A DNA stretch of 21,249 nucleotides from Oidiodendron maius Zn (lineage: Eukaryota; Ascomycota; Leotiomycetes; Myxotrichaceae), in assembly GCA_000827325.1 (NCBI GenBank), contig KN832899.1, forward strand, positions 197,793 to 219,041, written 5' to 3'. The notes beneath the pieces were generated by a model. It ran no database searches and was not told the origin of the DNA. It was given only the letters and a program-made list of their open reading frames with translations. A program made the position numbers and the translations under genes. Of this stretch, positions 2,562 to 14,648 are shown piece by piece (within the stretch, counting starts at the first letter, position 1; each line of letters starts with the position of its first letter).

Positions 2562-4392
2562 TTATGCCAAGTGGAGCTCTTGACGCCTTTCTTTCTTCGC
2601 ATCTTGAAGTTTGTTTGCCAGGGCAACCGGAAGGGTACCATCCGTCTCAAAGACAAGATCAATTTCCTCAAGTGAGAGATGTCGGAATTCTGGGAACCAT
2701 TGCCATGTTGCATAAATAGCAAAGGCATTAATGCCCATAAATACGAAGTATGTCTAAGAGCAAGGTTAATGTTGTGCGTGCCAATTTTGGCGGTCAATAG
2801 AGGACTTGCATACCTTCCACTGGAGATCTGCCAGAACGACAGAGAATCCGTAGGACATGGCAAAACCAAAGCTGTTCTGGAAGAACGAATACATACCCAT
2901 GCCCTTGGCACGCTGACTGTAATGAAGGACTTCATTTGGGTACATGTTATGTAGAGCATTGACTAGATAGGCATTAACTTGTATTTCGTAATTTCAGCAG
3001 GATAGAGAGACTTACCAAATAAGCCCGTGCAGATATTAAACATAAACAACGCTACAATCATAATATATCCCACTGGTTTCTCACCAGTTCCCGAAGCATA
3101 CAAGCCACCACAGAGAGCCATAAGCGCGAGGAAGAAGATATAAACACTCCATCCTGTAAGAAGAAGGGTACGACGGCGGACCCTATCTACAATAAACGAA
3201 CCAACTACAGTCGATAAGTATGACACGACAGTTATGCCGAGGTTCACACCAAGTACTTGCTGAGTATTTATGATCCCAACAAGATTAAGGACTCCAGGGA
3301 GATAATATGAGAGCATGCCAGATCCATTACATTGCTGGAAAAAGCTATACAGGAAAATAATCCACAGTCGTCTCCGCGAGTTAATCGTCTTGTATAGTGG
3401 ACTAAAGTCCCATGGCTTTGCGTCATGTCGTTCCATAGACTCTCGGATTTGTTCAATCTCAGCAGTAACAACTGCGTCGTTAATGTCTTCTGAGCTCGTG
3501 TGATAGCGCGCAATGACCTCTCGCGCTTGCTCAATCTTGCCGTTAGCGTAGAGATATCGTGGCGACTCTGGTGTACAGACATAAATAAGACATGCGACAA
3601 TAAAGGGTGCACCAATTTGGAAAACCATAGGGAGCCGCCAGCTCCAGTTACCTTCCATATAAGAGCCACCGAGGAGGACAACAGCAATCACGATGGCCCC
3701 AATGCTGTAGCAAGCGCAGTAAAGCCCAATGGCCAGACCTCTTCGAGAGGATGGTGCGATCTCACTCATGTACAAAGGGCCGACCGTTGCGGAGAGGGAT
3801 GCTCCAACACCGCTGAAGACCCGGCCGACGATAAGGCATTCAGTATTGGGTGCAGCAGCCATGAGGACACCGCTGCACACAAGAATCACATTACCGAGGA
3901 AGCTGACACCACGGCGACCAATAAGGTCGGATAGCCACTGGAAAGGGCTGGCACAGACGTTACCGATAGACATGGCTGCATTGATGATTCCAAGAGCAGC
4001 CCCACTGGTGCCGACATGGAAGTAGCTTCGAAATGCCGGGAGAGCGGTAATTCCACCGATAGAGGAGCCGTCGATGGCAAAAGCGGCGACGCCTTGTAGA
4101 AAAGCATTAGTATATATCTAAGTCGAGGAAGCGAAGCATTGAGAGGCGTGAAGCCAAGAAATGTCTTACTAAGTCCTTGGATTATGATGACCACAGCAAG
4201 GCGAAGTGTTGCACGAGACTTAAAGGTAATCGCATCCCTTGAAAGTTGGTCCAAATCGACCCGGTTGAGTTCGTGTTTGGCGGCTTCAACCGAATTGTCT
4301 TGAAACTTCTCGCTTGCAACATTATCTAGGCCTTCCAGGTGGTTGGCACTGGTTTCGATTATTTTCGAATCACCAAGAGATGGTTCTGCCAT
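2562..4392 (-). CDS. MFS sugar transporter (sugar porter family, lactose-permease/hexose-transporter-like)
   Basis: Spliced from complement(2562..2753, 2814..2962, 3016..4092, 4170..4392), this gives 546 residues, a full length for the family. All three introns (60, 53 and 77 nt) are GT...AG, and each junction restores conserved transporter sequence. The start at 4,392 has a good context (CAACATGGC). The polar N-terminus of about 60 residues is probably cytosolic, followed by 12 expected membrane helices. Visible sugar-porter motifs are DLIGRRG (130-136), PESPRYL (249-255), QQCNGSGMLSYYLP (327-340), DRVRRR (377-382) and YPNEVLHYSQRAKG (441-454). The protein should sit in the plasma membrane and import a sugar with protons. 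Fungal lactose permeases and hexose transporters share these motifs, so the substrate is not proven. The GH95 and GH2 neighbours point to a galactoside. A TATA box lies about 120 bases upstream. Confidence 0.92.
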
Positions 4393-5209
4393 GTTGGATA
4401 ATCTACTTATAGATATGGACCTACAGGAGGGTTTGAGACTGAAAGGATATTGAAGAATGAGAGGAAGAACTCTCTTTGGGCTGAGTGCGCTCGGAGCGGT
4501 AAGACCAATCTCTATATAAGAACCCAGTTTTGTGGTACGGTCCACGCATGCGGATTCCTTTGATTCCCACGCACCCCAGATCCCAACAGAATCGCATAAT
4601 AGCCGCGGGTAATTAAATTAAAACTGTTTGGGAGGAAATAAGCAGACCCAGACAGTTTATTTGGGAGTTAGGAGTGCGGGGTAAAGTAGACGGGCTAAGT
4701 CTCGGACTTTTGGGATGTTAGAGTTAAGCGATAGATTGTCGGCGGACGTTGCTATGCTGTAGAACCCAGTATTATGGGTCTTGTAACCCACGGTCTGGAG
4801 ATTTGGATGGCGCGAGTTATGTGTGTCAAGCTTAGATGAGGACATTGTTACAATACTTCACTGGTGTTGAGAGGAAGATTCCCAATTTGATAACCGTGCC
4901 GGCTGTACTAATACATCAATCTCTATTTGCCAGCGTTTTTTCTGGTTATTAAGGTAATCTCACAATCAGCAGTCACGTATGACCCTTGCATCAGTATTCC
5001 AAGAAGTAATATTGAGATGGAAAATAACAGTGCAGTATAGGATTTGGGGCGTGGTCGTGTTAAGGCTTGAAATTGAAATTTCACTTGTGACCAAGAAGCC
5101 AGATGTAATGTTATTCCTGAAATATTGCCTCTATTGATACGGGATTTGTTAGGAAAGCTCCAACAAGAACAACGTGACAGCCCTACGCCCCTCTATTGAT
5201 ATTGCCAAC
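4393..5209. other. intergenic region: transporter promoter and GH95 3' flank
   Basis: This 817-base gap contains the promoter of the MFS gene and the 3' end of the GH95 gene. Candidate sites, by consensus only, are two CreA-like hexamers (CCCCAG at 4,574-4,579 and GCGGGG at 4,676-4,681, consensus SYGGRG) and one XlnR-like GGCTAA at 4,693-4,698. Such short motifs are expected by chance at this density. The 62-codon minus-strand frame at 4,657-4,845 has no recognisable features and is not called. Confidence 0.5.
4513..4518 (-). promoter_or_regulatory. TATA box of the MFS transporter gene
   Basis: TATATA occurs about 121-126 bases upstream of the ATG at 4,392 and is followed, in the direction of transcription, by a pyrimidine-rich leader. 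This is a usual core-promoter layout for a filamentous fungus. Confidence 0.5.
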
Positions 5210-14500: not shown

Positions 14501-14648
14501 TCAAAGATTTATATTCACTTTGGGTTCGGTCAAAAGTCAGGGCTTTCTGCTCATCAGTGTAAAGATGGAAGTGTGATCTCGGCGGCAGTGTGTTCCGGTG
14601 AAGAACTCGGAGATTGTTCCAATCTGGTTGTATGGCTGGGAAAGACAT
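11592..14648 (-). CDS. GH2 beta-galactosidase, LacZ/LAC4 type, predicted intracellular
   Basis: A single intron-free frame of 1,018 residues, about the size of Kluyveromyces LAC4 and E. coli LacZ. It hydrolyses terminal beta-D-galactose with retention. Domain order: sugar-binding jelly roll (about 40-210), Ig-like domain (about 215-310), TIM barrel (about 312-600), second Ig-like domain, and a C-terminal beta-sandwich of the small-chain type (about 730-1,010). Catalytic motifs are clear: [10 protein letters not shown] with acid/base E461, and [16 protein letters not shown] with nucleophile E524. [10 protein letters not shown] and [12 protein letters not shown] are also typical. There is no signal peptide, so it should be cytosolic and need a transporter for its substrate. 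The start at 14,648 has the context CAACATGTC and gives the usual short N-terminus. Upstream, a divergent transporter remnant begins at 15,392. Confidence 0.95.

Follow-up and report, generated by a model that had tools for sequence, protein, structure and literature searches.

Among fungi, beta-galactosidase and permease genes arranged like the LAC4-LAC12 pair of Kluyveromyces are known. Among them are, in Aspergillus nidulans, the bgaD-lacpA couple and, in Neurospora, NCU00810-NCU00809; Neurospora also has a fucose-rhamnose transporter, FRT-1 (PMC10774165). Two secreted fungal enzymes of glycoside hydrolase (GH) family 95 cleave 2'-fucosyllactose and alpha-1,2-fucosyl-galactose (PMC12370193), and a survey (PMC10481521) gives the fungal fucosidases identified as predicted extracellular and fucose transporters as not verified in fungi. 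The locus presented here lies in a stretch of 21,249 nucleotides of Oidiodendron maius Zn (GCA_000827325.1, contig KN832899.1, positions 197,793 to 219,041), hereafter the window, and consists of four intact genes, all on the minus strand and occupying positions 2562-14648, that encode a sugar porter, a GH95 enzyme, a secreted enzyme of clan GH-N and a LacZ-type GH2 beta-galactosidase; the gene models were drawn from splice signals and family alignment, without transcripts. An earlier reading of the same DNA (the original prediction) had named these families, their common orientation and these limits exactly, and had known of no described fungal cluster with an added cytosolic GH95; among the titles and abstract beginnings listed by searches of open-licence PMC papers, none describes a fungal combination of a cytosolic GH95 with a porter.

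What could these four genes accomplish together? Outside the cell, the secreted GH-N enzyme would trim a plant polysaccharide that bears fucose, and the porter would import a fucosylated oligosaccharide, from which the non-secreted GH95, judging from its family and its missing signal peptide, would remove the alpha-L-fucosyl cap in the cytosol; L-fucose could then be oxidised by way of an L-fuconate dehydratase and associated enzymes whose genes lie elsewhere, and the LacZ-type GH2, in the least certain step, might remove the exposed beta-galactose. That the island represents such a small scavenging route, in which GH-N enzyme, porter, GH95 and GH2 would act in that order, is in our estimate an evenly balanced proposition whose parts differ in strength. 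Import followed by cytosolic defucosylation is, at the level of sequence, well supported, because porters recur at signal-less GH95s, because a gene for an L-fuconate-dehydratase-like protein is found at one of these loci (C18) and because fucose-type neighbours accompany some bacterial GH95s. Removal of galactose by GH2 after defucosylation is plausible from the adjacency of the genes alone, and we infer the transport of an oligosaccharide, the order of the steps and the substrate.

The GH95 gene (5210..7565, minus strand) encodes a putative alpha-1,2-L-fucosidase of 768 amino acids in two exons (6926-7565 and 5210-6876) separated by a single 49-bp GT-AG intron, and all three GH95 Pfam domains (PF14498, PF22124 and PF21307) exceed their cut-offs over the two exons. 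A pseudogene, as an internal TAG might have suggested, was rejected, since this stop falls where the intron begins and is removed by splicing. The N-terminus, MAEPLRLWYEEP, runs straight into the domain with no hydrophobic start, and the highest hydropathy of any 10-mer (1.36) falls within the domain, so that no signal-like stretch is present; GH2 likewise starts at its domain, its best 10-mer reaching -0.24. The absence of signal peptides from both enzymes, which had been predicted, is therefore borne out by hydropathy and by reading of the N-termini, the two means by which secretion was assessed throughout. The catalytic motifs NVNTEMNYW, NPSLSPEN and PPFQIDGNFG are kept in the alignment with structures 2rdy and 4ufc, and it is on these three motifs that we would place the catalytic residues of AfcA. 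These are the acid E566, the base N421/N423 and D766 (PMC10154630).

The sugar porter (2562..4392, minus strand) is a member of the major facilitator superfamily (MFS) of 546 amino acids, encoded in four exons (4170-4392, 3016-4092, 2814-2962 and 2562-2753) with three GT-AG introns; its main exon matches PF00083 with an E of 3.7e-57, and a search of the PDB returns distant transporters only, the best at 99 bits. Its top match in the genome is the porter at C5:829.8-831.5 kb (39% identity and 254.5 bits, the next reaching 197.8, with 79 of 290 candidates scored), while the main exon of the C5 porter, used as query, finds the window porter best (257.6 bits, the next reaching 144.5, with 114 of 209 candidates scored), the two being reciprocal best matches among the candidates scored. 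The C5 porter adjoins the GH95 that is nearest to that of the window: the two GH95s are 49.6% identical and mutual best within the genome, the remaining ones reaching at most 41.4% to the window GH95 (three of them compared in part), and they are sisters (support 98) in a quick tree of 83 rows, for which support was given by the Shimodaira-Hasegawa-like approximate likelihood ratio test alone. For this tree 85 rows had been assembled, 80 bacterial and archaeal and 5 fungal, two short ones being dropped.

The association of porter and GH95 is not confined to this pair. Searched with the N-terminal domain of GH95, the genome (45.9 Mb in 58 contigs) yielded 11 matches at eight loci, and 18-20 kb were read around each of the seven outside the window. 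Four GH95s are signal-less (that of the window and those at C5:827-829 kb, C18:95.7-98.0 kb and C22:367.5-369.8 kb), and all four have a sugar porter about 0.4 to 3 kb away, whereas tblastn with the window, C5 and C18 porters (E up to 1e-4) found none in the 18-20 kb around the four signal-bearing GH95s (C11, C26, C5:980 kb and C16), a transporter at C16 being presumably, by its reading, an EmrB-like drug transporter. This split has a Fisher P of 0.029. The probability that a porter would by chance lie within 5 kb at four of the eight loci, a distance picked after the data were seen, is 1e-4 with 118 porters in the genome and 4e-3 with 300, and becomes 1.5e-3 to 0.02 for the three of seven loci left when the window is omitted; the figure of 118 counts matching stretches in the search with the C5 porter, and a genome scan with PF00083 (9 of 559 candidates scored) was not used for counting.

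What surrounds the pair varies from one locus to the next. At C5, GH95 and porter are followed by a GH1 protein with no evident signal peptide and a GDSL-type open reading frame (ORF). At C18 the GH95 and its porter are accompanied by a GH36-type protein of the raffinose synthase family, a GDSL esterase, a Zn2Cys6 regulator and an exon of 268 residues belonging to the enolase superfamily. Searched against the PDB, this exon scores highest with 4ip4 (MR/MLE-like, 287 bits), four chains of L-fuconate dehydratase (273-276 bits) and ENOSF1 (269 bits) coming next; as a fungal fucoside cluster, this region (C18:88001-108000; L036, L037) looks fuller than the window. In the C22 region an ORF for a short-chain dehydrogenase/reductase (SDR) and an alpha-galactosidase-like ORF are found; the former, near the signal-less GH95 (C22:358001-378000; L034, L035), is a candidate L-fucose dehydrogenase, and between this GH95 and its porter there is a further fragment resembling a porter. 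GH95 and porter form the constant core, while the attached exo-glycosidase differs, being GH2 in the window, GH1 at C5 and GH36-type at C18. The C18 and C22 GH95s, which are 66% identical to each other, take another position in the tree, where their long branch drew a program warning; it would thus seem that a signal-less GH95 came to be combined with a porter in two lineages.

The place of GH2 in the scheme is more debatable. The gene (11592..14648, minus strand, intronless) encodes a LacZ/EbgA-type beta-galactosidase of 1018 amino acids in which five LacZ-type Pfam domains, Bgal_small_N included, exceed their cut-offs and which scores 1004 bits with the EbgA-type NCBIfam model, under the equivalog cut-off of 1284. 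GNE at 459 and CEY at 523 are presumably the catalytic motifs, and among solved structures the nearest relatives are two beta-galactosidases, 9m0e at 730 bits and 3ob8, the Kluyveromyces enzyme, at 713 bits. Divergent from GH2 and on the plus strand is a 59-codon open stretch (15392..15571), after which unrelated, degraded-looking sequence begins; we take this stretch to be possibly the broken N-terminus of a second, LAC12-type porter, an identity that no search confirmed, there being neither a Pfam match nor another match in the genome. The minus-strand stretches 16115-16339 and 16468-16662 resemble pieces of a drug-type MFS transporter and of an alpha/beta hydrolase; no Pfam family exceeds its cut-off in the stretches between 15.4 and 16.7 kb, whose sole other genomic match is 119 bases at 74% on C11.

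From these features arises a first alternative, namely that GH2 belongs with the ordinary cytosolic enzymes of lactase type, as in bgaD-lacpA, and that its own divergent permease is broken (15392-15571), porter and GH95 forming a separate neighbouring fucoside unit. The genome contains six LacZ-type GH2 genes, that of the window included (roughly 31-62% identity, depending on the stretch), no other GH95 locus has a GH2, and couples such as bgaD-lacpA are established elsewhere (PMC10774165), all of which, along with the divergent open stretch itself, speak for such an enzyme. On the other hand, no search identifies that stretch as part of a porter, and the four genes are co-oriented and compact in a 12-kb island whose genes bear no signature of repeat-induced point mutation (RIP). 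This alternative appears rather unlikely, if a real competitor. The intact window porter, co-oriented with GH2, is in the same locus at a distance of about 7 kb and not adjacent to it.

Bacterial relatives offer a second view of the GH95 contexts. GH95 loci were collected from bacterial and archaeal genomes by a scan whose seeds were peptides of the query itself, and the best 80 of 229 were taken; their GH95s share 38-54% identity with that of the window, the closest being mostly Bacillales at 50-54% and equalling or exceeding every fungal paralogue. Because of this seeding, and because no fungal sequences were added, the tree cannot decide on transfer. In the flanks of 8 of the 80 loci there is, at 35% identity or more, at least one relative of the reductase, the lactonase-type amidohydrolase or the FAA hydrolase of locus L055; L092, with a 28% reductase match alone, was left out of the eight. 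At L055 an L-galactose-dehydrogenase-type aldo-keto reductase, an amidohydrolase, an FAA hydrolase and an SDR all precede GH95, at L072 the reductase has L-galactose dehydrogenases as its best matches, and at L050 GH28, pectinesterase and GH43 genes precede GH95. With pathway roles assigned to the neighbours from their families, the bacterial contexts suggest side chains of pectin or hemicellulose. The window porter matches none of the 80 loci. Eleven bacterial genomes (G008, G009, G015, G017, G019, G022, G023, G025, G027, G033 and G037) carry 3 to 13 strong GH95 matches each.

Several results weigh against the scavenging route as a whole. By Pfam scan, the ORFs of the window include neither a fucose-catabolic gene nor a regulator, and the motif CCGACGG of the T. 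reesei regulator FUR1 is upstream of none of the four genes, its two matches in the window both lying within the GH2 coding sequence. The numbers behind the Fisher P are small, and at the seven other GH95 loci neither a LacZ-type GH2 nor the GH-N enzyme is found. Among the 80 bacterial loci, 71 are without any of the fucose-type genes searched for, the C18 L-fuconate-dehydratase-like protein as query matches none, and a GH-N relative is in the flanks of only one; GH2 matches just three (1e-10), one of them strongly, and a general GH2-GH95 linkage in bacteria was rejected on this count. In the predicted succession of import, defucosylation and degalactosylation, the first two steps are sustained by the distribution of the porters (4/4 signal-less against 0/4 signal-bearing GH95s) and by the C18 dehydratase-like gene, but the GH2 step finds no echo at the other fungal loci (0/7) and hardly any in bacteria (3/80); likewise, the neighbourhood recurs for GH95 and porter at C5, C18 and C22 and does not for GH2 and the GH-N enzyme. 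The earlier model is partly supported, standing in its core and unproven at its ends.

The cap itself might be another sugar. In a second alternative, which we consider unlikely, GH95 would act on a different alpha-L residue (L-galactose or 2-O-methyl-fucose) and the substrate would be a rarer pectin or hemicellulose fragment, e.g., a side chain of rhamnogalacturonan II or arabinoxylan. The end of the GH95 catalytic domain has as its top PDB match 4ufc, a GH95 L-galactosidase, and an L-galactose-dehydrogenase-type reductase stands beside some of the bacterial relatives; L-galactosidase activity is attributed to two GH95 enzymes (PMC10154630). Over the whole catalytic part, however, 2rdy is the best match and 4ufc the second, the C18 locus has its L-fuconate-dehydratase-like gene, although the GH95 there is of another lineage, and the two fungal GH95s mentioned at the outset cut alpha-1,2-fucosyl-galactose (PMC12370193).

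The extracellular end of the scavenging route would be served by the GH-N enzyme (9116..10612, minus strand, intronless, 498 amino acids). It is, as originally predicted, a hydrolase situated between GH95 and GH2 and probably secreted, its N-terminus being hydrophobic (best 10-mer hydropathy 2.68) and its sequence carrying 12 N-glycosylation sequons. With respect to GH28 polygalacturonases, it scores 35.6 bits with the Pfam GH28 profile, whose cut-off is 22.9, over positions 94-310 of the 324 in the profile; GH28 structures, 2uvf/2uve excepted, cover its helix domain only. Taking NTD, DD, GHG and RIK as the GH28 active-site motifs, we find D281, D299-D300, H340-G341 and R405 invariant across six relatives, with GDGID replacing NTD and the lysine of RIK missing. 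A predicted structure with a predicted local distance difference test (pLDDT) score of 82, which replaced a first model at 63, has an N-terminal beta-sandwich followed by a beta-helix, as in GH49; in predicted fold it would thus resemble the GH49 isopullulanase and dextranases, at 13-19% identity to the structures. The GH49 dextranase 6nzs was retrieved by phmmer with E 0.0015, and GH49 was not among the Pfam matches (E up to 10, most matches above 0.1 being dropped by the program). Membership of GH110 (alpha-1,3-galactosidase; carrageenan and blood-group-B enzymes) was considered and is not favoured, as that family ranks lower in both fold lists and its structures match residues 160-498 of the model only (VIA fold list).

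Relatives of the GH-N enzyme were sought in bacteria as well. A first bacterial scan with the enzyme and its paralogue gave none; among 31 Bacillota relatives, 6 lie within 10 kb of a GH95 against 0.7 expected, and tblastn on plasmids gave seven records with relatives, the surroundings of three of which were read. A relative at 43% identity is on an IMG/VR contig (L133, 4887-6338), behind what look like genes for phage tail proteins, and a Bacteroides relative adjoins an alginate lyase family gene. On C11, the ORF beside the GH-N paralogue (L047, 3363-4070) resembles an alginate-lyase-type protein, with no Pfam match.

Contig C30 ends with the window, which makes up its final 21,249 bases; to the left of the window the contig is N for at least 10,355 bases. 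Short introns, RIP signatures and the gene families fit the DNA of a filamentous fungus. A RIP signature marks the left flank (1..2000; composite index +1.0, GC 0.216) and, strongly, the right flank (16701..21249; +1.62, GC 0.253), is absent from the four genes (-0.49 to -0.63) and is intermediate in the spacers between them (-0.21 to +0.07); RIP-free genes between RIP-marked flanks make the cluster a gene island in repeat-rich DNA. These strongly affected flanks, like the degraded-looking stretches at 15.4-16.7 kb, might suggest an accidental neighbourhood of unrelated carbohydrate genes stranded among repeats and possibly decaying, a reading rendered very improbable by four intact reading frames with no RIP signature, by the second GH95-porter pair at C5 with its reciprocal best porters and by the occurrence of a porter within 5 kb of half of the eight GH95s, which chance would seldom give, as calculated above. 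Neither Rfam nor a tRNA scan gave a match in the window. The motif GGCTAAA is at chance level across the window, with two sites upstream of GH95, a number reached in 3 of 300 mononucleotide shuffles, and CCGG is enriched upstream of the GH-N gene (count reached in 11 of 300), these being 2 out of 24 motif-by-promoter tests. Beside the start of the GH2 gene, at 14873-14930, reading by eye finds a run of 8-base units resembling TTAGGGAG/TTAGGGAA.

Taken beyond this locus, the observations lead to a more tentative view, to which we would give somewhat less than even weight: filamentous fungi may possess an overlooked intracellular route based on porters dedicated to fucose-capped oligosaccharides, each with its signal-less GH95, for which two GH95 lineages would have been recruited in one genome (window and C5, near Bacillota enzymes and possibly of bacterial origin; C18 and C22) and to which exchangeable exo-glycosidases would be attached. 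Were this true, some fungi would privatise fucosylated fragments rather than digest them outside the cell; the recurrence of a cytosolic GH95 with a porter would be a pointer to transporters of fucosylated oligosaccharides, and the fungal use of fucose caps would become a question for simple uptake and deletion tests.

How does this locus, then, stand with respect to the systems already described? Outside the fungi, the xyloglucan utilisation locus of Cellvibrio japonicus (PMC4285296) likewise combines a GH95, a beta-galactosidase and an uptake system acting on imported fucogalacto-oligosaccharides, but is bacterial and periplasmic, has GH35 where the window has GH2, and includes a GH31 alpha-xylosidase, a family not found among the window ORFs scanned with Pfam. 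The fungal L-fucose clusters of the FUR1 type resemble the window in that GH95 is tied to L-fucose use and that, in some species, fucosidase and transporter are neighbours; however, the two characterised T. reesei GH95s are predicted secreted (PMC12370193), whereas the window GH95 has no signal peptide, the transporters there are putative L-fucose permeases, whereas the porter in the window belongs to the Sugar_tr (SP) family, and the window genes are without the upstream FUR1 motif. The closest fungal design is bgaD-lacpA, in which a signal-less LacZ-type GH2 also shares a locus with an MFS sugar porter and uptake also precedes hydrolysis; beyond this design the window has a cytosolic GH95 and a secreted enzyme of clan GH-N, and its porter recurs not with GH2 but with GH95.

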